Position numbers and translations under genes: made by a program. A stretch of DNA of 64,000 nt from Psococerastis gibbosa (Eukaryota > Arthropoda > Insecta > Psocodea > Psocidae), in the NCBI GenBank assembly GCA_963971405.1, contig OZ020486.1:29659419-29723418 (forward strand), in the 5' to 3' direction. Shown here piece after piece: positions 3,614 through 62,920 of this stretch. A model generated the notes under the pieces. It was not told the DNA's origin. It did no database searches and saw only the letters and a list, made by a program, of their open reading frames with translations. Each line of letters starts with the position of its first letter. The first letter of the stretch is position 1.

Positions 3614-3755
3614 AAGAACCGGTACGAGTGAACCCGTGCATGCTTTCCTATTAATAAATTAGTATAGGTACCGAGATAGATTCCTTGGTAAATAATTGTC
3701 CTAGTGTTATATTTCGGTTGCCTCGACAGAACCAATCTATCAAGGGGCAGGTGAA
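3614..3755 (-). repeat. Truncated Helentron-like (HINE) relic
   Basis: Carries the diverged 3' terminus of the family described at 50708-51560. On the minus strand there is a GCATG motif, a CGGGTTCACTCG hairpin relic and an ACCGGTTCTTTG end. Part of the TATCAAGGGGCA block follows closely, implying a large internal deletion. Confidence 0.5.
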
Positions 3756-4450: not shown

Positions 4451-4952
4451 AATGCGAAATAAAGATGTAGGGTTTTAAGGCTAGCCTAGTTAGAAACTTG
4501 GCACTGAGGTACAAAAAATGGAAAATAAAATACGGTATGGTATTAAGTTAACGGTTAAAGTTATTTTTCAAGGAAAGCGGAAAAGGAAAATGTCGATGGA
4601 GAAAATGAGGGAAAGTTTGAAGAAATGATGGCAACACATGTGTAACTACGTGACTTAACTCAGTAGCTGCTAACTCATCTTTCCTGACTTTTCGAAAATA
4701 AATTGGAAACTGGACAGCATAAATTGCAAAAACCTATAGACTGGTATAGTAGAAGTCTGAAAAATACAGTACTTTAGGTCTATTCTGCGAATACATCTAA
4801 ACAATATTGGCCCAAACAACAATTTCAATCCCAATCTAGTAGTCAGAATTCTGCGACTCACAAAAACAAACACAACCTCAAACTTATTTACCCCAGGACA
4901 CCATAAGCCCAGACACCAATAAATCATATTTTAGGATCCAATACATAGAAAA

Positions 4953-5818
4953 GAACCGGTCCGAGTTTACTCGAACATGCTTTCCAATTTATCAAGTAGT
5001 AGCTAGAGAAAATGCGAGTAATTTCATGGTAAATAATTTTCCTATAGTTAAATTTCGGGCATTTCGGGGGGGGGGGGGTTGTCTACCTGACGTCACTGGA
5101 GGTGAGGTAAATTCTACATAGGTCAGACCAACAAATTACCACACAGTCCACACAGCAATAATGGCAGGGCACGCAATGCATTTGACCGTGAATTTTCTAT
5201 CATTTTTTCAAAAACATTTTTTTGCACAAAACCAAATAGATTTTTGGGAAAGCAATCTGCCCAGTTTCGTCACTCAATTTAACACCTAAAACATGCCTGA
5301 AGGTATAAATCATCGATAGAAAGGTTTCACAGAAAAATTATTTTTTAGTCATTTTTCATTAAAATTTAGTTATTTTTATTTTTTTACCCCCAAAAGCAAA
5401 CTATCAAGGGGCAAGCGACGCCCCGCATTTTGTCAACATTAATAACGACTACAATATATGTGAATTTAAAAGAAATCGTTGGAGCCGTTTTGGATAAATA
5501 ATTTGTTTAGAAGTTTTTTTGAAGTTTTTTGAAAATAAAACCCCTCCAAATTGAGATAGCCCAAAATAAAAAAAATGGTCCCGAGGTATGATTTTTGTGA
5601 ACCTACATGCCGAATTTCATCAAAATCAACCTAGTAGTTTGCCCGGAAATCGACGCACAGACAGACAGGGCGACTGAGCGACAGATAGATAGACATTTCG
5701 TAAAAACCACTTTTTTTTAGTTCCTGGGACCTCAAAACGTGTAAATCCGTTGAAATCTCGGAATCGAAAATTTCGACCATCACAAAGCTTTCCTTATACT
5801 ACGTATAAATTGGAAAGC
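4953..5818 (-). mobile_element. Helentron-like non-autonomous element (HINE), full length
   Basis: Minus-strand copy, 866 bp. Its 5' end GCTTTCCAATTTATACG is at 5818 and its 3' end is at 4953. It carries both 14-bp subterminal inverted repeats (GCTTTCCAATTTAT at the 5' end and ATAAATTGGAAAGC near the 3' end), a perfect CGAGT-AA-ACTCG hairpin just before the terminal GGACCGGTTC, and a degenerate CTGT microsatellite near 5655-5695. It encodes no protein. Confidence 0.75.
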
Positions 5819-12627: not shown

Positions 12628-12984
12628 GACTATATTACACTTATATTATCAATTTTTTTCCCCGGGGGAGACTCCCGGGCCCCCCTCTTTGGATTACGTG
12701 CAATATTGTTTCTATAAGATCTAGTCCGCATATCAACGAAATGTTGTCTGGCTGTGTCCCCACTAATTTAGCTTTTTATATGTACCTATGGTAACATAAA
12801 TAGCCTACGAGTAACACCATAACCTGCATAACCTGGGATAGGATCACAGCCACCCCCGAAGAAAATCGTGGCTAAGGCTTGCATTCCACTAATGACAATC
12901 ACTCATAACAAAGATGAAATAATAAGACAAGGTAGGGCGCACCAAAGGTCTTGCGGGGGGAGGGGGGGCAGCAAAAGTTATTTA

Positions 12985-13058
12985 CGCTACTGCTCAAAAC
13001 GTGTAAATCCGGTGAAATCTTGGGGCTCCTTATGGTACTGCGTATAAATTGGAAAGCA
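12985..13058 (-). repeat. Helentron-like element 5' fragment
   Basis: Minus-strand fragment retaining GCTTTCCAATTTATACGCAG at its 5' end and the adjacent ATTTACACGTTTTGAG block. The remainder is absent. Confidence 0.5.
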
Positions 13059-16689: not shown

Positions 16690-17225
16690 CTTATTCATAT
16701 TGCAGCAAACAGGGGGGCACGGGGGTCTCCCCCGGAGGTTTTTTTAAAAAAAATAGGCCCGAAATAGTGGGGTTTTACGATTATAACAGCCGCAAAGCTT
16801 ATAATTTACAGAGGAAGACATATTCACGTTACTTATGTTATTTATGGGGAGGGGGGAGGCTGCAACCCAATATGCCCCCTTGCTTAAGGTCTTGGTGGAA
16901 TGGGAAGAAAAAGTTTGTAGAATAAATAATAAAATAGTAGGTCTAATGGAAAACGTCCCAGTCCCTGTCTGGTTTTTCCGGTACCCAGTGCATTCTGCTG
17001 CCCCTGGTGTACCGCAGTACTGACGAAAAATATAATTTTTAGTTTTAAATGAGATGAAGTTCCTAACTTCATAATAATTATAGTCAACTTCGAAAACAAA
17101 TTGATATTTAATATTTTTATTAATTACATAGATTATCTTATTATTTTTGGGAATCGAAGTGCGCCCCCACAATGCTGTGCCCCCCCCCCCGCCGCGGGGG
17201 TTGCGGGGTCTTATTTACGCCACTG
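16690..17225 (+). repeat. G/C-run repeat fragments
   Basis: Contains GGGGGTCTCCCCCGGAGG near 16723 and a ...ATTTACGCCACTGG end near 17214, both hallmarks of the CATTGGCG repeat family, plus poly-C near 17178-17190. Overlapping frames up to 142 codons (16744-17172) have no recognisable domain and are treated as spurious. Confidence 0.5.
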
Positions 17226-17969
17226 GTTGTGAGGTCCCAGGAGCCCAAAAAAGTGTTTTTTACGAAAAGTCTGTCGCTCTGTCACTCAATCTGTCTGTCT
17301 GTTCATCGTATTCCAGACAAACTACTCAGTCGATTTAGATGAAATTTGGCATGTAGATTCATAAAAATCATACCTCGCGTTAATTTATTTTGGGCTATCT
17401 CAATTTGGGGGGTTTTATTCTCAAAAAACTCCAAAAACGTCTAAAAAATTTATTTATCAAATACGGCTCCAACGATTTCTTTTAAATTCACATATATTGT
17501 AGTCGTTATTAACGTTAACAAAATGCGGTGGGGCACTTGCCCCTTGATAGTTTGCTTCTGAGAGTAAAAAATAAAAATACCTAAATTTTCATTAAAAATG
17601 GTTAAAAAATAATTTATCTGCGAAACCTTTCTATCGATGATTTGTACCTTCAGGCATGTTTTAGGTGTTAAATTGAGTAACGAAACCGGACAGGTTTCTT
17701 TACCAAGAAACTATTTTGTTTTGTGCAAAAACATTTCTCTTTCAAAAATTTTGAAATTTCACGCTCAAATCCAATGCGTGCCCTGCCATTATTACTGTGA
17801 GGTATCTAGAATTTACCTCACCTCCAGTGACGCCAGGTGGACAACCCCTCCGCCCCCTGATATATCCAAAATTTAAACATAGGAAAATTATTTACCTTGA
17901 AATTACTCATTTTCTCTGTCTACTACTTGATAAATTGGAAAACATGTTTGAGTAAACTCGGACCAATTC
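17226..17969 (+). mobile_element. Helentron-like element, 5'-truncated
   Basis: Begins in the GAGGTCCCAGGAGCCC block (the first ~95 bp and the 5' subterminal repeat are lost). It keeps the CTGT microsatellite (about 17268-17305), the CCCTTGATAGTTTGCTTCTG block, a 3' subterminal ATAAATTGGAAA and a hairpin TGAGTAAACTCG with one G-T wobble before the end. Confidence 0.7.
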
Positions 17970-18547
17970 TTTGATTGTTGATTGCTTTCTTCAATATACA
18001 ATATATACCATATGAATTTATGTAGTATCACATCTCGTTCCAATTTTTCTTGTGTCCATATTTATTGAAACAATATTATAGAGTGTGTACTCAAGGGAGT
18101 TGTAATTCCTTAATTTGTTGTTAAATATTTGTTTATCTAGTGGCGGTAGGCTACTTTTTTTAGTTAGTTGTTAATTTTTCATTTCGCGAGAGGGGCTGCA
18201 GCCCAGTAAGCCTCTCATGGCTAGGGTCGTACAGTAGCTATGAGTTAGTCATTAGACATGGCAACCATTAGGAGGTTTACTTCGTAGTAAGAGTATTGAG
18301 AATTGATTCAGTATGCAAAATATTCAATTCAGCACACTATTGGCTGTTCAGTTAAATGCGGCCGAACCGAGATGTGAAAAAAACACTTAAAAACGCCGGG
18401 GCGAGAGGGCCGGTCTAGACCAGTGGTTCCCAAATGGTTGGGATGTTTTGCCCTTTCTTAAATGGGTTTAATAGGTGATGTCCAGCTACTCTTTCCAGAC
18501 ATATATTTAGGGTAAGCCACCACTGTATCGGCGGAAAACTGTTTTAA

Positions 18548-26610: not shown

Positions 26611-27346
26611 GCTTTCCTTATTTATTCGAAGCTAAGCAAGAGGTTTGTGATTGTCGAAATTTTCGATTTCAAGATTTCAGCGGATTTACAAATTAATGGG
26701 GTTCTACTAAAGGAATCCAAAACAGTGTTTTTTGCGAATGGTCTGTCTGTTCATCGATTTCGGGGAAAAAACAACTCGGTGGATTATAATGAAATTTGGC
26801 ATTTAGGTTAACAAAAATCATACCTCGGGATTGTCTTATTTTTATTTAGGGTTAACTCAATTTTTGGGGGATTTACCTTACAAAATCGGCTGCAACAATT
26901 TTATTTACATTCACATGCAGAGTTATTGTAGTCATGACTGTATTAATTTTAACAAAACCCTTGATAGGCCTAGTTTGGTTCTGGGGGCAAAAAATTAAAA
27001 AAAAAATGAATTGAAAATGGCTAGAAAATAATTTTTCTGCGGAACCTTTCCAACTTTAGGTATATTTTAGGTGTTAAATAGAGAAACCAAACCGTACAGG
27101 TTGCTTTCCTAAGCAAATTTTAGTTTTGAAGAAATTAAGTTATGGATAATTCATGCCCCAATACCATTATGCCATTTTTACTGTGTTGTCACACATTGGT
27201 CTGCCCGTTCTAGACCATAGTTCCATCGATCAATTCAGCTCTTGGGGATAGGAAAAGTCGAGGCAGCCAAAATTAAACCTAGAAGAATTGTTTACCATAT
27301 TTATTGATAAATAGGTAAGCATGAACGGCTACACTCGTACCGGTTC
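26611..27346 (+). mobile_element. Helentron-like element, diverged
   Basis: Begins GCTTTCC at 26611, carries TTTGTGATTGTCGAAATTTTCG, a shrunken GTCTGTCTG tract near 26744 and the CCCTTGATAGG and AACCTTTCCAA blocks, and ends ACCGGTTC at 27346. The 3' hairpin has decayed (CGGCTACACTCG) and internal deletions shorten it to 736 bp, suggesting an older copy. Confidence 0.65.
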
Positions 27347-27548
27347 TTTTTATATGGCATTGCACAAGTCCTATATAAAACGCTAGAGTGGAGTGCCTTA
27401 AAATACTCCCATCACAATTTAAGCATGAATACGCATAAGAACTGAAATGTGTTAAATTATGAGGCTGACTTTGGCCTAAATGCCTGGCCAGCTCTAAAGA
27501 TCAGAAAGGGTACGGCGAAATAAATTGTACTCAAATCAGAGAAAAAAA

Positions 27549-30500
27549 TTATTTAATGTTGACTAGCTGGTATTCGAAATTGCTTACCTCAACAGGAACG
27601 TTGTCTAAATCATTGTAGTCGCACCAATCTCCTTCAGTAAAATCCACATCAACAAATTTCTTGTGTCCACTTTCAGAAGCCCAGCCATCTCGAGGTTCAA
27701 ATCCAGTCACCTCTAAACCCCGACATTCAAATGCGACGACACTCCTGAACTGACCATCGTCTTCACTTGTGTACTCATAGTTTGTCACGTCAGCACTGCG
27801 CTTGGCCTTTTGTTGCTTCGGGTTTGCCTGTAAATTTCCAGTATCTATTGAACATTTAAGTTAAAATCAAATGTTCAGTTCAGTTCAAATCAAACCGTGC
27901 AAGGAACTAATAACAATATGAGTGTACAGCCCGAAGGAAATTGGCAGCCCGAAATTTAGTATTTTTTTTTTTTATTTAATTAACTAAGCATGCTATTAAA
28001 GATTTGGCTCATTAAAGTTGTAGAAGACTACTTCATGCATCAGATAATAAGGTATTTTTAGTTATCGAAATTGTAGTTTTTTTATAAAATCGATTATATG
28101 TCAGAAGTTATTGTTTATAAAATATTATCATGTTTATGAAAAAACTACAATTTCGAAAATTAAAAATATCTTATAAGATGCATGAAGCAGTCTTCTACGA
28201 CTTTAATGACCCAAATCTTTAATAACAAGCTTAGTTAATTTAATAAAAAATAAAAAGTACTAAATTTTGGGCTGCCAATTTCCTAGGGGCTGTACACCCT
28301 TAAAGCATCATAAATGAACGGGGAGGAGAAATAGAAATCAACTTATGCAGTGTGGCTGCAAGGCTGTTTCCACAAAGTAACAGTTTTAAGATGTATTGAA
28401 TAGTATTGCAGTTTATTAATTTATTATGAACAAATTGGAGTGCCCCCACTGCACATTTTCTGTACAGTCGATTTTCACATGAAATGTCGATCATAAAATG
28501 GCCGATATTTCAATGTATGACATGTGGCCTTCACTATCGCCAGTTGGCCACACTTCTTTAACTCCTTCCTCCGGACACCTATCGTTTTTTGTACATAACA
28601 GATTCAATAATTGTGGCCAATCTGAGGCACACATCGAAAGATAGAAAGATTACAAATCATAAATCAGAAAAATGCCTTCTGATTGTCTTGATATTTTTGA
28701 CAGCTCTACGATTGTTGTTGTTTTTGTTGCTGTGTTGTTGCTTGGTAGCCAAAGGCTAATTTGAACAACCTCTTGGTCCTAACGTCTCGAATAAATGTCT
28801 GCTCCCGCAGTACTACAGCTGAAGTTGTACACTCGATTTTCTTCGCCTATCTTCTTTCTAAAAGACGACACTGTTTGACACGCACGAATAGCTTGACTCA
28901 GTCGATTGTATTGCGCTACACCATTTGTAAAAAGTGACTTATTTCATGAGATATTTAGTTTGCATTTCCCCTCTCCGATTGTCTCTTAAAGCATGAGGCT
29001 GAGCGGCTCGACTCAAATTCAAATCATGAGAAGAAATTAGGATTAAAATTTCCTCCATGCATTTCAAAAATTTGTAACACTGTATAACATATAAGAATAT
29101 AATACTATATATAGCCTTGCTTACCTTAGCTTGAGGTAATATGTTGAGTGAATTTTCCCGGTTGCAAAATTTGCATTTACATAAGAAGTGGACTTGAGAT
29201 TGCCCATGGCTCAGATCAAATTGTTCATCCAGAGAAACAGTATGCCAATTAGGATTCTCTTCGCCACATCCCGAACATTTTATCTGCAACATAAAAAACT
29301 ACTTATTGAAATGCAGAATTTAATGGCACAACACTGTACAAGCACTTAACAGTCACTGGCCGTCTCAGAAAAAGTACAGTTTCTCAGGAAGGGAGGTGGG
29401 CACGCTACTCAAAACGGTCATGAGATTGTCCAATACGCGCGCAACCATCCTACTACATTATTTGTTATTCAATGACAAACTTGGTGACTGTCAACTAGAA
29501 CCTAGCCTAGTTTGCATTTTTTTAAGACCGCAGCTGTTTTTATTTTTGAAATTGCTGGGGGTTTTCTGGAGATTATATCCGAAATAGGGAATCAAAGTAA
29601 AACTGAATCCGGCTAAACCGACATCTGCCGTTGTCTTGCGCTTCCTAGCCGCAAAGTAGGTACATATGCTGCATATGTATGCTGCTTCTGAAGGTAGAAG
29701 CATGGCAAAAGCCCTTGGACACTTAACCCACAGGCAGCGAACCTCAACTGAAGTGAAGAGACAGTTTCATTAGGCACCCATTCCATTGACCGGCTAGGGC
29801 TATTTCTAACAACGGTGACGTGGTAGCAGACATTCAAGACTTAGGTAGCGTTTCCACCGATCTCGCATTGCAGAATGCAAATGACATTGACGGAAATTAG
29901 AATTTTTCTTTTTATAGAAATCTATTAAAATGTTTGTACTTAACATATCCCATGACGCCATTTTTTAATATTAGTTTATTTGTTTGTGATTTTACTGTAT
30001 GATCATTGATCAATTTTAACTATGGCATAGAGGAAAATAAACATTTCCGTCAATTCTGCAATGCGAGGTCGGTGGAAACGCCACCTAAGTCTTGAATGTC
30101 TGCTACCACGTCACCGTTGTTGGAAATAGCCCTAGCCGGTCAATGGAATGGGCACCTTAGGAGGACGAAGACCCTCGATGAAACTACGAATAGGCTACAA
30201 GCACATGTGACATGTCAAGCCCGCATTCAGTCGTTGACTCGATTTCTTGGTACCGCAATCAATTCAAGGGAAAAGATGGTACCGGATAAAGAGCTACATA
30301 ATATAAAGTAATAATACAGGCTTATGGTTGGAATGAAATGCTGCGGGCCTGACCTCCCCGCTAAGGCTTCAGTGACGAACTATTCTGCTAAGTGCAAATG
30401 AGGTGACATTCAGGCTGAAAAGTCTCAGTCAAAGTTAAAGTGGCCATCATAAGGGAGTAATGTTCCAGTTCAACTTACCTTCAGCCACCATTGAAACTTT

Positions 30501-30571: not shown

Positions 30572-30941
30572 TATTACTAGTATTATACTGTGTTATATTA
30601 GTTATACTCCTCTCAGTCAGTTCAAGATCATTTGTATATTATCAGACGCAGCTATCAACATACACATAACAGCTGTTTAAAAATTATTAGTAAACAAACT
30701 GAGACCTTGACCACTGGGCGCCCAAAAAGGAGGGGTTGAAAACATTTATTATGTGTGAAAATAGTCATTATTTTTATTTTAAAAGTGAATGAAAATATGA
30801 ATATTTTTATTTATTTTCTTGATTTAAAATTATTGAACCAAATAAATTGAATTTATAATAAGTTTACTATTTCTTACTCATTGGTAATATATTGATTTGT
30901 TTAGAAAGTTGCGGAGGGTTTGTTTTTTCGAGCGCTACAAA
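30572..30941. promoter_or_regulatory. Candidate bidirectional promoter between CZIB and synaptojanin
   Basis: The 370 bp between two divergent start codons must hold both 5' leaders unless upstream non-coding exons exist. It is AT-rich with no obvious TATA box placement. A pyrimidine/T-rich tract ending TTGATTTGTTTAG at about 30903 resembles a 3' splice site, so the synaptojanin transcript may have a 5' non-coding exon further upstream. Confidence 0.5.
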
Positions 30942-33900
30942 ATGGCGATGGGCAAAGGATTTCGTATTTTTGAAAAAGTTAATCCTCCAAATCCCTATAG
31001 TATTTTAATGGAACAGAGACACAAAGATGAGACACTTTTATTTGAATCACAGGCAGTGGCAGCTCTTTCCGCCCAAGAAACGGATTCAATGAAAAAGCAA
31101 TATACTAAACTTTTGGATGCATACGGATGTCTTGGAGTTCTTCAATTAAATGCAGGTGATAACACAGTATTATACTTAGTCTTAGTCACTGGATGTATAT
31201 CAGTAGGAAAACTAAAAGACTCTGAAGTTTTTCGCATAACACAAACTACTTTTGTGTCTTTGAGAAACCAATCGCAAGATGAAGATAGGATTAGTGAAGT
31301 ACGTCGCCTACTCAATTCAGGAACATTCTATTTTTCGTGGACCAGTGTTGGTGAGTCGTTGGATTTGACATTGTGTGCGCAGCGCCGGCATCTAACACTA
31401 GAGACTGATAATCGTTTCTTCTGGAATAGAATGCTTATGATCCACCTATTACGGTTCAATGTTGATTGCAAGCAATGGGTTCTTAAAGCTATGTGTGGGA
31501 GCGTTGAAATTAGAACAGTTTACGTAGGTCACCGTCAGGCCAGGGCTTGTATGATATCTCGTCTTAGCTGTGAGCGAGCTGGGACCCGTTTTAATGTGCG
31601 TGGTTCAAATGATGACGGTCATGTTGCGAATTTTGTTGAGACGGAGCAGATGATAGTCATGGACGATGAAGTCACATCTCATGTTCAAGTCAGGGGATCT
31701 GTTCCATTTTTCTGGGAGCAGCCCGGGGTTCAGGTTGGATCACATCGCGTTAAAATGTCGAGAGGGTTTGAAGCAAGCCAGCCTGTATTTGATCGCCACA
31801 TGTCCATGATAAGACACAGATACCGTCACCAAGCTATTATAAACCTTCTTGGTTCGTCTATGATTGGAAGTAAGGAGGGAGAAGCATCTCTTAGCAACTT
31901 ATTTCAAGCTCATCATAAGGCTTCCAATGAAAATGATGTGCCCCATATTCTTTTTGATTATCACCAGGAATGCCGTGGTGGCAATACGAAAAATTTATCC
32001 AAACTTAAAGCAAAAATTGAAAAATATTTCAAAGCATTTTCTTTGTTTTATTCAAAAGCTGAGGACGTAATTTTAGAGCAGAAAGGGGTATTTCGAACAA
32101 ATTGTCTAGACTGTTTGGATAGGACAAATTGTGTTCAAACTTTCATTGGATTGGAGACCCTTGCTGCTCAATTACACCTCCTCCGGCTTATGGAAAAACA
32201 GCAAATGGTCTCTAGATTTGAGGAGGTATTTCGGCAGCTTTGGATCAATAATGGAAATGAGGTCAGCAAAATTTATGCTGGAACCGGGGCAATACAAGGA
32301 AGTTCAAAATTAATGGACGGGGCTCGATCAGCTGCAAGAACAATCCAAAATAATTTACTGGATAATAGTAAACAGGAAGCAATTGATATATTGCTGCTGG
32401 GCAGTACCCTCAACAGTGAACTTGCTGATCGAGCTAGGATACTGCTACCTCAACACATGCAGCATGCACCGACAGGAGTACTACTTGAATTATGCAAAAG
32501 ATACAGCGAATTTGTGTACTCCTCTCCCATTAGAGTGGCAATCGGTACTTACAATGTAAATGGAGGGAAACATTTTCGTTCGGTCGCTCACAAGGACATT
32601 TCTCTCGCCGATTGGTTATTGGACGCACCGAGAATGACCAAATCTCGTTCTTTAGTTGATGTAACCAAAGGCGAGTCAGCCCCTGTTGACATATTTGCTA
32701 TTGGCTTCGAGGAAATAGTGGATTTAAATGCTGGAAATATAGTGGCAGCTAGTACTGACAATGCGAAACAATGGGCTGATGAACTTGAGAAAGTACTCTC
32801 CCGTGATCTTAAATATGCACTCATTACCTATATGCAGTTAGTTGGAGTTTGCATTTATGTTTTTGTTAGGAAGGAACACGCTCCGTATATAAGAGATGTT
32901 GCGCTGGATTCGGTTAAGACGGGTCTTGGAGGGGCTACTGGCAACAAGGGCGCATGCGCTATACGTTTTGTCTTCTATAACACATCCTTGTGTTTCGTGT
33001 GCGCCCATTTTGCTGCTGGTCAGAGTCAAGTCACGGAAAGAAATGCCGATTATGCTGAAATAACCCGTAAAATTGTTTTTCCGATGGGTCGCACACTAAA
33101 CTCTCACGACTATGTATTCTGGTGTGGGGATTTTAATTACCGCATTGACATGGACAAAGAAATTTTGAAAGAAGCTCTAAAAAACAATGAAATCGAGCGA
33201 GTTCTGCAATATGACCAACTGCGCACCCAACAAGCTCAAGGTAATGTGTTCAAAAATTTCATCGAGGGGGATATTCATTTCCCACCCACCTACAAATATG
33301 ACGTCTTTTCGGATGACTACGATACCAGTGAAAAACAGAGAGCCCCGGCTTGGACGGACAGAGTGCTATGGAGACGACGTAAACAACTGGGAGATGACGT
33401 AGCCGCTAGTGGATGGAGGCCGGGTGATTTGGTTTTTTATGGCCGAGCTGAATTGAAGCAAAGTGATCACCGACCCGTTATTGGCATTATAGATGTTGAT
33501 GTTTTCCGCACGCAAGAGCAACTACTATCAAACGTATGGAAAGAAGTACTATTAGACAGAGGTCCTCCAGACGCAACTATTGTAATTCACGTTGAAGGAG
33601 AGGATCCTTATTCAGTTTTTGACGATAACTTTATTATGCTTCTCCTTCAAGACTTGTCACAAATTGGTGAAGTTATCCTAGTTAGGTTCGTCGACGACAC
33701 AATGTGGGTGACTTTTCGTGATGGACAATGTGCTTTAGCTGCAGCCAAAAAAGGATCAACCCAACTTTGTGGCCAGACACTCAATCTTGCATTAAAAACT
33801 AAAGACTGGATTAGCCTTGCTGACTTAGAATTGCAACTTTGCTCTGATAACACAGTACCGCTGTCAAAAGAGGATATTGAACTGAAAATTTCCCCAAGTG

Positions 33901-34328
33901 ATGTTCCTCCGGATGATGTTTTGGAGTTAATTAAGACTCCTCAAGTAGACGTTGGCCGATGGAGTCCGATTCCGCCTGAAGAAGGAGACGCAGGGGCTAA
34001 AGTGCCACCACGACCAGGGCAACCCCCGACCCGACCTCCGCAGCCGATGAGCCCAGTGAAAGCTGTGCGTCCTCGAGCAGGTGTCATTAGCATACCTGTG
34101 CGAACAGAGGTGGCGCCTACGCAAAACCCATATGAGTCACCCAATATTTACGAAGAGATTCCTGATGATGAGAGCCGACCTGAACCAAAGGGACTTCCAC
34201 CACCCCCTCCTCTCCCTCAACGACCTCGTACCGCTCCAGCTTTGCCCGACCGACCTGCACCTCCGGTCCCAGCCCGCACTGGTGGACCGCCTCCCATCCC
34301 AGCTAGATCAGGTGTACCCCCTTCCTAA
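30942..34328 (+). CDS. synj: Synaptojanin, phosphoinositide phosphatase (intronless coding region)
   Basis: A complete 1128-aa protein from ATG at 30942 (context AAAATGGCGATGG; the open frame extends upstream without another ATG). Synaptojanins remove phosphates from PI4P and PI(4,5)P2 and uncoat endocytic vesicles, notably at synapses. Domains: Sac1 phosphatase about 55-480 with the catalytic CX5R motif CLDCLDRT at 388-395; type-II inositol 5-phosphatase about 533-855 with GTYNVNG, WCGDFNYR (727-734), PAWTDR (802-807) and SDHRP (841-845); RRM-like DUF1866 domain about 880-965; proline-rich tail about 1020-1128 with several PxxP SH3-ligand motifs. All catalytic motifs look intact. Animal synaptojanins are usually about 1,100-1,570 aa and multi-exonic, so a 3.4-kb uninterrupted frame is unusual beside the intron-rich neighbours and could indicate a functional retrocopy. 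The stop is TAA at 34326. Confidence 0.96.
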   Translation: MAMGKGFRIFEKVNPPNPYSILMEQRHKDETLLFESQAVAALSAQETDSMKKQYTKLLDAYGCLGVLQLNAGDNTVLYLVLVTGCISVGKLKDSEVFRITQTTFVSLRNQSQDEDRISEVRRLLNSGTFYFSWTSVGESLDLTLCAQRRHLTLETDNRFFWNRMLMIHLLRFNVDCKQWVLKAMCGSVEIRTVYVGHRQARACMISRLSCERAGTRFNVRGSNDDGHVANFVETEQMIVMDDEVTSHVQVRGSVPFFWEQPGVQVGSHRVKMSRGFEASQPVFDRHMSMIRHRYRHQAIINLLGSSMIGSKEGEASLSNLFQAHHKASNENDVPHILFDYHQECRGGNTKNLSKLKAKIEKYFKAFSLFYSKAEDVILEQKGVFRTNCLDCLDRTNCVQTFIGLETLAAQLHLLRLMEKQQMVSRFEEVFRQLWINNGNEVSKIYAGTGAIQGSSKLMDGARSAARTIQNNLLDNSKQEAIDILLLGSTLNSELADRARILLPQHMQHAPTGVLLELCKRYSEFVYSSPIRVAIGTYNVNGGKHFRSVAHKDISLADWLLDAPRMTKSRSLVDVTKGESAPVDIFAIGFEEIVDLNAGNIVAASTDNAKQWADELEKVLSRDLKYALITYMQLVGVCIYVFVRKEHAPYIRDVALDSVKTGLGGATGNKGACAIRFVFYNTSLCFVCAHFAAGQSQVTERNADYAEITRKIVFPMGRTLNSHDYVFWCGDFNYRIDMDKEILKEALKNNEIERVLQYDQLRTQQAQGNVFKNFIEGDIHFPPTYKYDVFSDDYDTSEKQRAPAWTDRVLWRRRKQLGDDVAASGWRPGDLVFYGRAELKQSDHRPVIGIIDVDVFRTQEQLLSNVWKEVLLDRGPPDATIVIHVEGEDPYSVFDDNFIMLLLQDLSQIGEVILVRFVDDTMWVTFRDGQCALAAAKKGSTQLCGQTLNLALKTKDWISLADLELQLCSDNTVPLSKEDIELKISPSDVPPDDVLELIKTPQVDVGRWSPIPPEEGDAGAKVPPRPGQPPTRPPQPMSPVKAVRPRAGVISIPVRTEVAPTQNPYESPNIYEEIPDDESRPEPKGLPPPPPLPQRPRTAPALPDRPAPPVPARTGGPPPIPARSGVPPS

Positions 34329-38197: not shown

Positions 38198-39861
38198 ATA
38201 GAGGCACCCTCTTACAATTTGACAATTATGATTTATTGTGGAATTAATGTTGATATTCTTTATGAAAAGTAATACCTGCCAACCTTCTATTTTATTATCT
38301 TATTGTGTTGCCTACGTACAGATAAGCACGTAAATAAACTGCATGTTATATTACTCTGTAGCTTGCTAAATCGCCATTTTAATTGTGTGGAAACTGATTG
38401 TGATCGGGGTATTGCGGTTTTTCCTTATCCTCTGTTAATTTTCTCACGTTATTGCTTTCCAATTTATTTTAGCAGCGCTCAATAGATACTAGGTATGTAG
38501 GTCAGGTATGTAGCTCACATATCAGTGGCAGACTAGTGTGTTATCTTGATACTAACATCTTGATGTTAGAGTTTGGTTAACAAGTTCGGCAGTAAGAAAC
38601 TAAAGTATACTAAGTCTTATTCTATTGTGTTGATGTCTATTTTTCGCTGTTACGGAATGATAGGGCTGCGCACCTACACACCTAAGATGTTTTTGCACTT
38701 ATGCATGTAATCGAATAGCTGTTGTTACTCCGTAGTACTATATGTGTCAATGTATGTATTCGTTTGTTTGAGGGGTAGTCGAACACCTCACTATCCGTTT
38801 TATGCACGAAGTAAAATCTCATTAATACTATACGATGAATATTTGATGATAAATTGATAGTAGGATGACCGATTCCCCCTTAATTGTATGTTGTTTTATG
38901 ATACATCACACAATGGAATTATTTGTGTCCTTGGTCTTCTTTATTTTATAATTTGTCATTATAAGAAAAAACTGCTTAACTCCTTGAATCAAAATTGTTT
39001 AATATTTAAGTAGTCGTCTGAGCAACAGTCATTGACTGTACTGTTGTCTGACCTACAATAACAACCATGTAATATTGTGTTTATTCCAAAACCGACATAT
39101 ACCTGAAATTGAAGAAACAATGCGTTTCATTGTATCGATTTAGCTTGAATTTCTAGACTGGTATGAGCAGGCCAGAGTTTCTAATGTGGTTTCATTTGGA
39201 CGTTAAAGAAATTTAAAAAATACCAGAGAAATTTGTATGAGGTAGATTGTTTGTACCTACTTATGACTGCAGTTTATGATATCATTGAAAATCAGGTTCC
39301 GGGCTTTATGTAGATGCACGAATGGTCGCCTGACGTTGACATATATATTTTTGTTAATCAGTTACTTTGAGGATATTATCAAATACAGGTTTCTCTGGAT
39401 GATCAATACTTTGTTGTTCGAAATTATTTATAAACCAATGAAATCATGAAATTAATATGATAGTAAATTATTATTATAACCTTAAACTGTGTCGGTTACC
39501 TAGATGTTATAAATACTTGGATTCAATACTCCCCACGCTTGTTAATTGTTTGCAATAAATCGACCACGGATGTAAGGTGGCCATTAACTTAAGTTAATAA
39601 AAATTATTATGTTGAGAATTGAACGTGCGGCTGCATTCACGGACTCTTGACTTCACTATAATATCTTGGTTAAATTACTAGGATATTATTTTTCAAGTAT
39701 ACTGAATAGGTTCAAATGTACCTAGGGTAAAAAATCTCTTTTTTTTGGAGCTCAAGTTTTCGTTTGCATGCCTTTCGGTATATTTCTTAACAATTCCTAT
39801 AATAGTAGCCCGAGTAATTTGGTGGCTTAGCGAATTGTCTACAACTCGACTGCGTAACTTA
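38198..39861. other. No recognised feature
   Basis: AT-rich sequence without repeats shared with the rest of the window or any convincing coding exon. Confidence 0.4.
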
Positions 39862-40592
39862 GGGGTGTACGGCCCGTAGGAAATTGGCAGCCCGGTCCAC
39901 CTCAATGTATTAAAAACCTCCTTAAAACTCAATTGCATATTCTGGAATGAACAGACCAATACATTGTAACAGTAGTAACAATGGCAGGGCACCCAATGTA
40001 TTGGAGCGTGAAGTATCTATAATTTCTTCAAGGAAAATTTTCCACAGAAAATAAACCAAATATTTTTTTGGGAAAGCAACCTGTTCGGTTTTGTTACTCT
40101 ATTCAACACCTAAATTTAACATACCTGAACGTAAAAATCATCGCTAGAACGGTTCCGCAGAAAACTTATTTTTTAGTCATTTTGTATGAAAATTGACTTA
40201 TTTTTATTGTTCTACCCCCAGAAGCAAACTATCAAGGGGCAAGTGACCCCCACATTTTGTCAACATTAATAACGACTACAATAATGTGAATTTAAAAAAA
40301 AAAAAATCGTTGGAGCTGTTTTTGAGGAATAATGTTTTTAGACGTTTTTTTGGAGTTTTTTTTTTAAAATAAAACCCCCCAAATTGAGTTAGCTCAAAAT
40401 AAAAAATAAAATGTCCCGAGGTATGATTTTTGTAAACCTACATGCTAAATTTCATCAAAATCAACCGAGTAGTTTGCCTGGAAATCGATGAACAGACAGA
40501 CATTTTGTAAAAACCACTTTTTTGGGTTCCTGGGACCACAAAACGTGTTAATCCGTTGAAATGTTGGAATCGAAAATTTTGACCATCACAAA

Positions 40593-42837
40593 TCTGCCAA
40601 AATGATAGTTTAATTCAAATATAAATAAATTTTATATTTAGATTGTCCTTTCGTACTTACCTAAACAAACACAGGCTTCTTGTCGCAGATTTGCAGTTTA
40701 AAGGAAGAAGGAAAAGACAAGTAGAACTGCAGCCGAAAATAAAGTGGTACTTGCTCCAGAGCGACCAAGACAAGAGAGAGGTGTTTAAGCAGCGAATTGA
40801 AGAGCATTTACAAGGCCTAGATGCACAATGGCAAAACCTTACAGCAAATGATGTTTGGGTCTCATTCCAAAGAAACGTAATATGTGAGGCCGAAGAAGTA
40901 CTTGGCAAGTCGAAGGGGGGCAAGAAGATAGAGCGGGATGCCTGGTGGTGGAACGAAGAGGTACAGAAAGCCCTGAAGGAAAAGAAATGCGCTTTTAGAG
41001 CATGGCAAGGTGATAGAGTGCCTGAGAAGCATGAAGAATATAAAAATTGCAAGAGACTGGCGAAGAGAACGATAAGGGCAGCAAGGGACCAGGCTACACA
41101 GAGGTGGTACGAAGAATTGAGCACGAGAGAGGGGGAGCAGAAGATCTACAAAATAGCTAAAAATAAAGCAAAGCTGCAGCAGGACATGGGAGCTATAAAA
41201 TGTATCAAGGATGAGGCAGGACGAGTACTAACAAAAAGCGATGATATTACGAAAAGATGGAGAGACTATTTTGACACGATTATGAACACTGGGGGAACAA
41301 GAGAGGAGTGGCAGGAAGACGTGTGCGAGGGACCCGTGCAGGAGTTTGACGAAGAAGAAGTCAAGAAGGCACTCGACAAAATGAAAAGAGGAAAAGCAGT
41401 GGGACCAGACAATATACCAATTGATGTCTTCAAGGCACTGGGGAGCAGTGGGGTGAACTTCATGACAAAATTGGTTAATAAAGTTTTAAATGGGGGAGAA
41501 ATCCCAGAGCAGTGGAGGGCAAGTACAACCGTGCCCATCTACAAACAGAAAGGAGATGCCCAATCGTGCAATAACTATAGACCTATCAAACTAATGTGCC
41601 ATTGTGTGAAGTGGTACGAGAGGGTAATTGACACCAGATTGAGAAGCCAGATAGAGTGCAACATTTCAGAAAACCAGCTTGGATTCATGAAAGGCAGAGG
41701 CACTACAGACGGTATATATGTTGTGCGAACAATGCTGGAACGGCATAGAGATCATCAAAGACAACTGCATTACGTTTTTATCGACTTAGAGAAAGCCTAC
41801 GACAGGATCCCGCGGGACCTAATATGGGACTGCCTGAAGAAGCACGGAGTGTTGGCGGAGTATATAAGGGTAATCCAGGATATGTACCGGGGGTGCACCA
41901 CGAAAGTAAGAAGCGCAGCAGGATTGAGCGAAAGCTTCTCTGTCAGTTTTGGGCTACACCAGGGCTCTGCACTAAGCCCTTTCCTCTTCTTGATAGTAAT
42001 GGATGCGGTGACGGAACAAATCCAGGGCGAAGCTCCGAAGAGTATCCTATTTGCAGATGATGTCGTCCTCACAGCAGACAGTCGCCAAGATGCTGAAGCT
42101 AACCTGAATACATGGGTAAAAACGCTGGAGAAGGAGGGACTGAAAGTGAACAAAGATAAGACGGAGTACATGGAGTGCGTTAGACAGGAGCCGGGATCCA
42201 TCAGCATAGGCACTCACACAATAAACAAGACTAACAAATTTAAGTACCTGGGCAGTACTATTGAACAGAATGGCGGATGTGAAGATGATGTCAAATGTCG
42301 AATTAAGGCCGGGTGGATGAAATACAGGGATATGGCACCTATATTGACGGACCGCAAGATGCCGATGAAACTCAAAGGCCGAGTGTATAAACAAATGGTA
42401 CGTCCGAGCATGCTATACGGGTCGGAATGCTGGCCACTCAAAAGGGACGAGGAGAATATGCTACATGTAGCCGAAATGCGTATGTTAAGAAGAGCATGTG
42501 GCTTTTCTCTGATTGACAGAGTGAGAAACACCGACATAAGATGCCAAATGAGAACAAGAGACATCCACGAAAAGCTGCGAGAAAGACGACTAAGCTGGTG
42601 GGGGCACGTCGAGAGGAGGGGGGACAACGAGTTGATAAAAAGAGTGTGATCAACACCCGTACCAGGAACCAGAGCACGTGGACGACCAAAAATCTCACTG
42701 GCGAGTAAAACACGGAAGGACCTACTAATTGCCAATCTCTCGAGGGAACAGGCCCAAGACCGGGTGACCTGGAAGCGTTGCTGTCGTGCCGCCGACCCCC
42801 CGTGAAGGGAAATGGCGCTGAAAAAGTAAAAGTAAGT
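40593..42837 (+). mobile_element. 5'-truncated RTE-like LINE retrotransposon
   Basis: 2245 bp flanked by ACAAA (40588-40592 and 42838-42842), a 5-bp candidate target duplication created in the host repeat. It ends in a short AAAAGTAAAAGTAAGTA tail rather than a long poly(A), as in RTE-type elements. Only the last residues of an APE-type endonuclease remain before the reverse transcriptase, so it was truncated at the 5' end and cannot move by itself. Confidence 0.85.
40643..42805 (+). pseudogene. LINE reverse transcriptase ORF with one premature stop
   Basis: Open for 668 codons (40643-42649), then TGA, then a further 51 codons in the same frame to TGA at 42803. These include GRPKISLA and DRVTWKRCCRAADPP, the usual end of RTE-type ORFs. 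Motifs: endonuclease remnant LLVADLQF (about 12-19); GKAVGPDNIPIDVFKAL; RT motif A FIDLEKAYDRIP (379-390); motif B GLHQGSALSPFLFLIVMDAV; catalytic FADD (470-473); KYLGSTI and LLYGSECW-like C-terminal blocks. Clean apart from one stop, it looks like a recent insertion. Antisense frames across it are shadows. RTE clade is my best guess; CR1/Jockey is less likely. Confidence 0.9.
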
Positions 42838-42935
42838 ACAAAGCTTTCCTTATACTACGTATAAATTGGAAAGCAATAAGAAGTCTGTAAAATCAACGGA
42901 TTTTGGGGTATCTATTTCCTAAGGGACGTACACTC

Positions 42936-50513: not shown

Positions 50514-51753
50514 AGGCGCCCATTCCACCGACCGGCTAGGGCTATTTACAAAAACGGTGACGTGGTAGCAGACATTCAAGACTTAGGTGGGGTTTCCACC
50601 GACCTCGCATTGCAGAATGCAAATGACATTGACGGAAATTAGAATTTTTCTTTTTATAGAACTCTATTAAAATGTTTGTACTTAACATATCCCATGACGC
50701 CATTTTTGCTTTCCAATTTATACGTAGCATAAGGAAAGCTTTGTGATGGTTGAAATTTTCGATTCCGAGATTTCAACGGATTTACACGTTTTGAGGTCCC
50801 AGGAACCCAAAAAAGTGGTTTTTACGAAATGTCTGTCTGTCGCTCTGTCTGTCTGTATGTCTGTCTGTGCGTCGATTTCCGGGCAAACTACTTGGTCGAT
50901 TTCGATGAAATTTGGCAAGTAGGCTCACAAAAATCATACCTTTATTTTGGGCTAACTCAATTTGGGGGGTTTTTATTCACAAAAAACTCCAAAAAAAAAA
51001 GTCTAAAAAAATCATTTCTCAAAAACGGCTCCAACGATTTCTTTTAAATTCACATATATTGTGTTAATGTTATTAATGTTAACGAAATGCGGGGGGTCGC
51101 TTGCCCCTTGATAGGTTGCTTCTGGGGGTAAAAAAATAAAAATAACTAAATTTTCATGAAAAATTACTCAAAAATAATTTTTCTGCGAAACCTTTCTATC
51201 AATGATTTTTACCTTCAGGCATGTTTTAGGTGTAAATTGAGTAACGAAACCGGACAGGTTGCTTTCCCAAAAAACTATTTGGTTCTCTGTAAAAAAAAAT
51301 GTTTTTGAAAAAATCAAAATCCACGCTTAAATGCATTGCGTGCCCTGCCATTGTTGCTGTGTGGTAATGTAATGTAATGTCTGACCTATCTAGAATTTAC
51401 CTCACCTCCAGTGACGTCAGGTGGACAACCCCCCCCCCCCCTCCCCCCGAGATGTCCAAATTTTAACTATAGGAATATTATTTACGATGAAAGTACTCAT
51501 TTTCTCTAGCTACTACTTGATAAATTGGAAAGCATGTTCGAGTAAACTCGGACCGGTTCTTTAATTTTAGTTTGTTTGTTTGTGATTTTACTGTGTGATC
51601 ATTCATCAATTTTAACTATGGCATAGAGGAAACTAAACATTTCCGTCAATTCTGCAATGCGAGGTCGGTGGAAACCCCGCCTAAGTCTTGAATGTCTGCT
51701 ACCACGTCACCGTTTTTGTAAATAGCCCTAGCCGGTCGGTGGAATGGGCGCCT
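50514..51753. mobile_element. Family A MITE interrupted by a Helentron-like element
   Basis: Tips GGCGCCCATTCCACCGACC and its complement, flanked by TA (50512-50513 and 51754-51755). The arms match 29773-30157 closely up to CATGACGCCATTTTT and resume at AATTTTAGTTTGTTTGTTTG. The intervening 50708-51560 is the inserted element. Confidence 0.85.
50708..51560 (+). mobile_element. Helentron-like non-autonomous element (HINE), reference copy
   Basis: About 853 bp with boundaries set by comparison with the empty site at 29773-30157. It starts GCTTTCCAATTTATACG and ends ATAAATTGGAAAGC, ATGTT, CGAGTAAACTCG, GACCGGTTC. The 14-bp subterminal inverted repeats, the hairpin near the 3' end, the CTGT/GTCT microsatellite at 50829-50872 and insertion into an oligo-T tract match non-autonomous Helentrons such as DINE-1. 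There is no coding capacity: the 66- and 72-codon frames here are products of the microsatellite. Confidence 0.75.
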
Positions 51754-61321: not shown

Positions 61322-62165
61322 GCTTTCCAATTTATATGTAGGATAGGAAAGCTTTGTGACGGTCAAAATTTTCGACTCCGAGATTTCAACGGATTTACAC
61401 GTTTTGAGTCCCTGGAACCCAAAAAAGTGGTTTTTACGAAATGTCTGTCTCTCTGTCTGTCGCTGTTAGTTCGTCGATTTCCGGGCAAACTACTCAGGCG
61501 ATTTTGATGAAATTTGGCATGTAGGTATAAAAAAATCATACCTCGGGACCATTTTTTTTGGGGCTAACTTAATTTGGGGGGGGGGGGTTAATTCTAAAAA
61601 AACTCCAAAAAAACGTCTGAAAAAATTATTTCTCAAAAACGGCTCCAACGATTTATTTTAAATTCACATATATTGTAGTTATCATTAATCTTAACAAAAT
61701 GCGGTGGATCGTTTGCCCCTTGATAGGTTGCTTCTGGGGGTAAAAAAATAAAAATAAGTCAATTTTCATGAAAAATGACTAAAAAATAAATTTTCTGCGG
61801 AACCTTCCTATCGATGATTTCTACATTCAGGTATGTTTTAGGTGCTCAATTGAGTAACAAAACCAAACAGGTTGGTTTCCCAAAAAAGTATTCGGTGCTG
61901 AGCAAAAAATTATTTTTTGAATAAATTATGGAAAATTCACGCTCCAATACATTGCGTGCCCTGACATTGTTACTACTGTTACAATGCATTGGTCTGTTCG
62001 TTCCAGAATAGGCAATTAAGTTTTAAGGGGATTTTAAGATATTGAGGTGGACCCCCTAAGGGATCCGATATTTAACCATAGGGAAATTATTTACTATGAA
62101 TTACACAATATGTCTATCTACTAATTTATAAATGGATAAGCATGTTCGATTAAACTCGGACCGGT
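61322..62165 (+). mobile_element. Helentron-like element, near full length
   Basis: 844 bp, starting GCTTTCCAATTTATATG after an oligo-T run (61315-61321) and ending ACCGG before a T run. It has the CTGT tract (61442-61462), the TGCCCCTTGATAGG block and a hairpin with one mismatch (CGATTAAACTCG). The 3' subterminal repeat is eroded. It lies in the region upstream of the first visible Skeletor-like exon. Confidence 0.7.
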
Positions 62166-62920
62166 TTTTTTTCATTGCAGCCATAGGACTTGGTGAATGG
62201 TGGGTGCAAAACCACACCTAAACCGTGCACCGTGCTTCGCGTTGGCATTATGCCAGCTGCAGAAATTGACAAGAAATCTTCTTCTAGTCCACAATGAAAA
62301 AAAAACTCGCGACTGCACTCATCTGTGTGTACTGGACCTAAAAGAAAATAAAATCATCTCGGCGACAAAAGAGCTTACGCTCCAAAGCAGAGCCTTATTT
62401 CAATGTTAAAGTGCAACGCAAGCAAAGTTAAACTAGCCTACTATGTTGAGCTAAAATAATTCATTAGCAATTATTGCTACTGTAGTTGCGGGCAAAACCA
62501 GTCGTATGTGGTTTGGGAATAAGTCGAAAACAGGGGCGACAATGAAGTCCAGAACAAGGGAGGGAAAGATTGCAGAGAAATGAAGTCGAGTGAGGATTGA
62601 TAAAGCGCGCTCCCGTGCATTCAGCTGGAACTAACCGAAAAGGGGTGCCCACACCCACCCCTATGTCACACGGGTCAATCGACCGAAGAAAATGAATCAT
62701 GGAAACCACTTATACAACTGTGAGCAAGGGATGGACAGAGATGGATGGAATGAAAAAAGAATGGCGATTAAAGGTTTTTTTGGAAAGTTTCAAGAGACAG
62801 TGGCAGTGCGGTTTGTGAGGGAAAACATTTCTCCTCAAAAAGTCATTGAAAATGAAAGTTCTTCATTTGAGAAATTAAAATGTATAACAATATTCAACAG
62901 GGTTCAACCTTCATGGTGAA

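Follow-up and report, generated by a model that had tools for sequence, protein, structure and literature searches.

A repeat of about 850 bp at position 50708 of the window, by which we mean the whole 64-kb stretch of DNA that was analysed, raises the question of what kind of mobile element it is and which protein moves it. Its structure, its insertion target and its abundance make it very likely that the repeat belongs to a family of non-coding elements of the HINE (DINE-1) type, with the Rep (HUH) protein presumably supplied in trans.

Anatomy, copies and abundance of the element

The headline copy runs from the 5' repeat through GGAAAGC, the CTGT microsatellite, an A/T-rich body and a C run to the 3' repeat, the hairpin and the terminal ACCGGTTC, and it is flanked by oligo-T at both ends (Table 1). 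A preliminary description made from the sequence alone had listed GCTTTCCAATTTAT, its complement, the CGAGT-AA-ACTCG hairpin, the CTGT microsatellite and oligo-T as the structural signature, and all of these parts were located in the element; the 5' inverted repeat GGAAAGC is an additional part absent from that description. The start given there was retained, and the end was moved from 51560 to 51559, because 51560 is a flank T. The subterminal inverted repeats are 14 bp long, exact and near both ends, and the extreme ends are not inverted copies of one another. The CGAGT-AA-ACTCG palindrome stops 9 nt short of the 3' terminus, within the range of about 8 to 35 bp expected of a HINE. No open reading frame (ORF) of at least 150 amino acids was present in the headline copy, and the only ORFs of that length overlapping any listed copy were those of the insert in the split copy.

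Table 1. Coordinates of the headline element, its empty site and related copies in the window
Feature	Position	Strand	Remarks
Headline HINE copy	50708..51559	+	Complete, GCTTTCC to ACCGGTTC; ends set by paralogous empty sites
5' subterminal inverted repeat GCTTTCCAATTTAT	50708..50721	+	Seen in sequence
5' inverted repeat GGAAAGC	50733..50739	+	Forms hairpin 50708-50739 with the GCTTTCC of the 5' repeat
CTGT-type microsatellite	about 50830..50869	+	Length varies among copies
3' subterminal inverted repeat ATAAATTGGAAAGC	51520..51533	+	Complement of GCTTTCCAATTTAT, 26 nt before end 51559
3' hairpin, 7-bp stem, core CGAGT-AA-ACTCG	51536..51553	+	Core at 51539-51550
Paralogous empty site of headline insertion	29850..30079	+	96% to joined flanks
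Second complete copy	4952-5818	-	87% identity, BLAST
Complete copy	61322-62166	+	79% identity, BLAST
Complete copy, older diverged subfamily	26611-27347	+	Two BLAST pieces, 65% and 82%
Copy without first 80 nt	17226-17970	+	82%; adjoins end of another transposon-like repeat
Split copy	39974..42874	-	Main piece 78%; interrupted by insert 40596-42837
5' fragment, element positions 1-88	12993..13057	-	BLAST
3' end fragment	3615..3664	-	80% identity, BLAST

The 5' hairpin had a folding energy of -5.6 kcal/mol (z -3.5), which none of 200 shuffled sequences equalled. A 20-nt piece chosen around the 3' hairpin also folded better than its shuffles (z -2.77), but the 44-nt 3' end as a whole did not (z -0.61; 50 of 200 shuffles as good). 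The 14-mer GCTTTCCAATTTAT has 15 matches in the window at two or fewer mismatches against 1.41 expected, and no shuffle among 100 reached this number, the largest value being 5. The matches with one mismatch at 1210 and with none at 38454 were rejected as copies because no HINE sequence follows them.

With the headline copy as the BLAST query, all of the six substantial copies (whole or as large pieces) and two fragments reported for the 64 kb were recovered, their main pieces being 65 to 87% identical, and nothing was found when three copies were searched against the reversed window. Two of the reported copies needed correction. The copy at 17226 is present and substantial but truncated at its 5' end, and the copy reported at 39894-42874 is indeed split but its 3' end was not found, since BLAST saw HINE sequence only down to the lower limit given in Table 1. 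HINE sequences make up 7.6% of the window; in 200 kb around Rep genes their share is 2.3%, with loci R5-R7 representing a single block that enters the count three times. Several copies looked as if they lay within inverted repeats, and a flanking inverted repeat was detected at an E value of 0.01 for 4 of 13 tested HINE copies, two of them strong.

Several neighbouring features were observed in the window. The insert in the split copy contains an ORF of 668 amino acids for a reverse transcriptase, and the HINE pieces on its two sides overlap by 8 nt (positions 30-37). Two separate HINE copies, at 12978-13057 and 17211-17240, break off at an identical point against the repeat end CAGTRGCGTAAATAA, their pieces overlapping by 8 nt (positions 81-88); this arrangement looks like a hAT-type insertion. 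At 30897-34325 (+), an uninterrupted ORF of 1143 amino acids matches synaptojanin (Sac domain, 5-phosphatase and DUF1866) and may represent a retrogene or a gene with few introns.

The abundance proposed from the window alone holds for the genome. Searching the 409-Mb genome for exact matches to the 23-nt 3' end gave 8,003 occurrences (4,037 forward and 3,966 reverse), and the reversed 23-nt control sequence does not occur at all. Among the 40 places scored out of 10,896 candidates, 39, the query included, span at least 835 of the 853 positions, and the places other than the query are 85 to 92% identical to the headline copy. Because none of these relatives exceeds 92%, the lineage of the headline copy does not look recently active, as far as one copy can indicate. 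The 20-nt 5' end was not found exactly in any contig of the viral collection. Four HINE 5' ends on contig C12 (12503653, 12511471, 12519290 and 12527109) each have a C before them, are evenly spaced 7,818 to 7,819 bp apart and are probably part of a tandem array containing a HINE.

Rep-helicase genes and the HINE ends

HINEs are described as having arisen by deletion from Helentrons, which encode a protein with an endonuclease at its end, and the Rep motif is given as G-S-P-H for Helentrons versus G-L-P-H for Helitrons (both in the portion of PMC4067079 drawn on here). Genome searches returned 20 Rep matches from 26 candidates and 15 PIF1 matches from 20. Eleven Rep places were examined with wide flanks, and four ORFs were scanned for domains, namely one each of families A, B and C and one ORF on contig C15. 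The preliminary description had proposed looking for a Rep/helicase element sharing the HINE ends; Rep-helicase ORFs do exist in the genome, but no autonomous element with both HINE ends was found among the 20 Rep and 15 PIF1 matches, including the 11 places with wide flanks. The open ORFs, one per family, are 1441, 1619 and 1671 amino acids long and have Helitron_like_N and PIF1 domains, and no endonuclease domain was matched in these three. At the 20 loci, families B and C have GLPH, the Helitron type, family A has GMVH, one locus has GSPH and four have no motif.

The GSPH motif belongs to the sole long Helentron-type Rep ORF, which is 1135 amino acids long (L047:6274-9678, minus strand; genome C15:2836273-2839677). 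In this ORF, the scan found DUF6570 and no helicase, and there was no PIF1 match beside it; HxH and YxxxY were seen by eye. Elsewhere in the genome, the ORF is represented by 11 short pieces of 28 to 67% identity, several with stops, and it is perhaps truncated or domesticated. A full HINE and a HINE 5' end near it lie outside the ORF or point away from it. Two further loci contain both kinds of sequence. At C3:44448866-44450371, a HINE 5' end (44449948, minus strand) lies in the gap between Helentron-type Rep fragments, which suggests a HINE nested in a Helentron remnant. At R3/R4, a HINE-like remnant in reversed orientation is present past the B-family ORF and was read as a nested insertion.

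In family C (contigs C1, C14 and C15), the open 1671-amino-acid Rep-PIF1 ORF is preceded, at a distance of about 790 bp and on the same strand, by a HINE 5' end. This end is 93% identical over 91 nt, is preceded by T5 and is present in three copies, an arrangement that favors the reading that this endonuclease-less family moves the HINEs, which would be its deletion derivatives. We consider this reading unlikely. The three copies count once because they are one near-identical block of 13 to 15 kb (L037-L042) that carries the ORF on three contigs and is bordered by diverged repeats of about 1 kb. No HINE 3' end was found downstream of the ORF within 7.2 to 9.5 kb, either by BLAST or with the 3' repeat at two or fewer mismatches, and what does occur there is limited to scattered imperfect matches to the hairpin or the last decamer. 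In addition, the homology to HINEs breaks off abruptly inside the element after about 330 nt. Among 40 scored places, block copies aside, the matches were to HINE copies or to a neighbouring foldback repeat, and a single weak match lay clearly past the break (C12, query 745-820, adjoining a foldback-repeat match). A degenerate family C copy (R11/L048) lacks a HINE 5' end over the 6.9 kb that precede it, although this point is weak because the copy's own 5' part is missing. The interpretation of the 5' end as the partner's own was dropped because it counts once, stops abruptly and has no 3' counterpart, and the piece looks, although without certainty, like a truncated insertion.

More broadly, mobilisation of the HINE family, now or formerly, by Helitron-type Rep-helicases without endonuclease is improbable. 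Such a helper is conceivable because Helitron2 is described as having asymmetric repeats and a Rep-helicase without endonuclease (in the parts of PMC4067079 and PMC5148889 consulted). If true, it would break the published link of DINE-like ends to endonuclease-bearing Helentrons.

Insertion between Ts

Termini were counted in 327,164 bases, in which some stretches overlap and seven loci were chosen for holding a HINE. A 5' end was counted when its alignment started within the first three bases and a 3' end when it reached within five bases of the end, and termini outside these limits were left out. TT precedes all 23 counted 5' ends (19 distinct) and follows all 16 counted 3' ends (14 distinct), that is, it stands at 39 of 39 termini, of which 33 are distinct once the common flanks of L002-L004 and the single block R5-R7 are allowed for. 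The proposed insertion between Ts was thus borne out; TT accounts for 0.109 of the dinucleotides in the window. Across the genome, TT comes next in 8,003 cases of the exact 21-nt 3' end and a base other than T in 286, with T plus non-T outside the count, and the exact 20-nt 5' end stands after a non-T base 143 times, an absolute number and not a share.

The flanks of 11 copies were used to look for empty sites in the stretches of sequence analysed, and spanning relatives were obtained for two. The headline copy is nested in another repeat with 110-nt inverted arms, and four uninterrupted paralogues of its site were found: the one in Table 1, two in L032 and a shorter one in L007. All four have T6 at the empty site, compared with T5 and T3 around the element, a gain of two Ts. 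For the second insertion (L047:1176), the empty relative at window positions 27963-28174 has T7, compared with T5 and T8, a gain of six Ts. No non-T base is duplicated at either site. The preliminary description had held that target duplications longer than 2 bp would speak against its reading; none was present at the headline site, but the six Ts gained inside a T run at the second site mean that a longer T-only duplication may have occurred there.

The gain of two Ts at the headline site can also be read as a TT target duplication, as would be left by a MITE that arose by deletion from a cut-and-paste DNA transposon, and DINE-1-like elements were formerly placed under that name (as stated in PMC4067079, seen in part). 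A MITE should have terminal inverted repeats and a duplication of fixed length. However, the ends here differ, with the 3' repeat lying 26 nt inside and followed by the hairpin, and the two empty sites differ in their gain, so that a MITE is very unlikely. A SINE or other retroposon, with which the high copy number and the lack of a long ORF would agree, is scarcely credible given that the window yielded neither a tRNA gene nor an Rfam match at the gathering score and that the elements have a fixed 3' end, no terminal A tail and no non-T duplication.

The reading as a non-autonomous DINE-1-type family, already put forward in the preliminary description, is therefore supported by the structure, the TT at all counted termini, the T-only gains at empty sites and the thousands of exact 3' ends. 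Its proposed assignment to the Helentron type agrees with the DINE-1/HINE anatomy and target, but the search turned up no Rep-helicase-endonuclease element with these ends. Other observations also weigh against the HINE reading: the 3' repeat is nearer to the end than the 38 to 60 bp reported for mite HINEs (PMC4067079, in the section drawn on), only the piece around the hairpin beats its shuffles in folding, the second site gained six Ts and not two, a base other than T precedes 143 exact 5' ends, and empty sites come from 2 of 11 copies.

By analogy with its family, the HINE probably spreads by rolling-circle copying with the proteins of other elements. A Rep (HUH) protein acting in trans would recognise the subterminal repeats and the hairpins and nick at the T-flanked 5' end, and one strand would be displaced. 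The hairpin before ACCGGTTC would serve as the stop signal for copying, and the displaced single strand would be joined into a T run. The DINE-1/HINE group thereby gains a family with well-defined ends, at least 8,003 of its 3' ends matching exactly, and for one of its insertions the empty site is clean, with a gain of two Ts. As the searches showed no complete Helentron, the family raises the question of which Rep moves such elements.

Comparison with known families

A canonical Helitron (Helitron1) has 5' TC, 3' CTRR and an A/T target, and the elements here differ from it in both ends and in the target. Hel-2 elements (BmHel-2/OnHel-2) of Lepidoptera and other insects, as presented in the part of PMC4344730 drawn on, resemble them in having (CTGT)n downstream of the 5' repeat, a 5' inverted repeat and a 3' hairpin. 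In contrast, Hel-2 has 5'-TC and 3'-CTRR and inserts between A and T, whereas the elements here have GCTTTCC and ACCGGTTC and insert between Ts. Cg_HINE of the Pacific oyster shares a 5' repeat with an inverted repeat, a 4-nt microsatellite in the left module (GTCY in several), a palindrome in the right module and a T-rich target, and the portion of PMC7492417 consulted links no autonomous partner to it; unlike Cg_HINE, the headline copy is without a satellite-like central array.

The overall design also agrees with that of HINE/DINE-1 elements as outlined by Thomas et al. (2014, PMC4067079, in the passages drawn on). Both have subterminal inverted repeats, a 5' inverted repeat, a 3' palindrome and a microsatellite, and both insert at TT with variable numbers of Ts, with no other change to the target and with a very high copy number. 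The points of difference are the position of the 3' repeat, in a comparison made by description and not by sequence, and the endonuclease-bearing partner, which the Rep and PIF1 searches did not find here. Altogether, set against published families by description, this is a very abundant and apparently new family of the known DINE-1/HINE kind.
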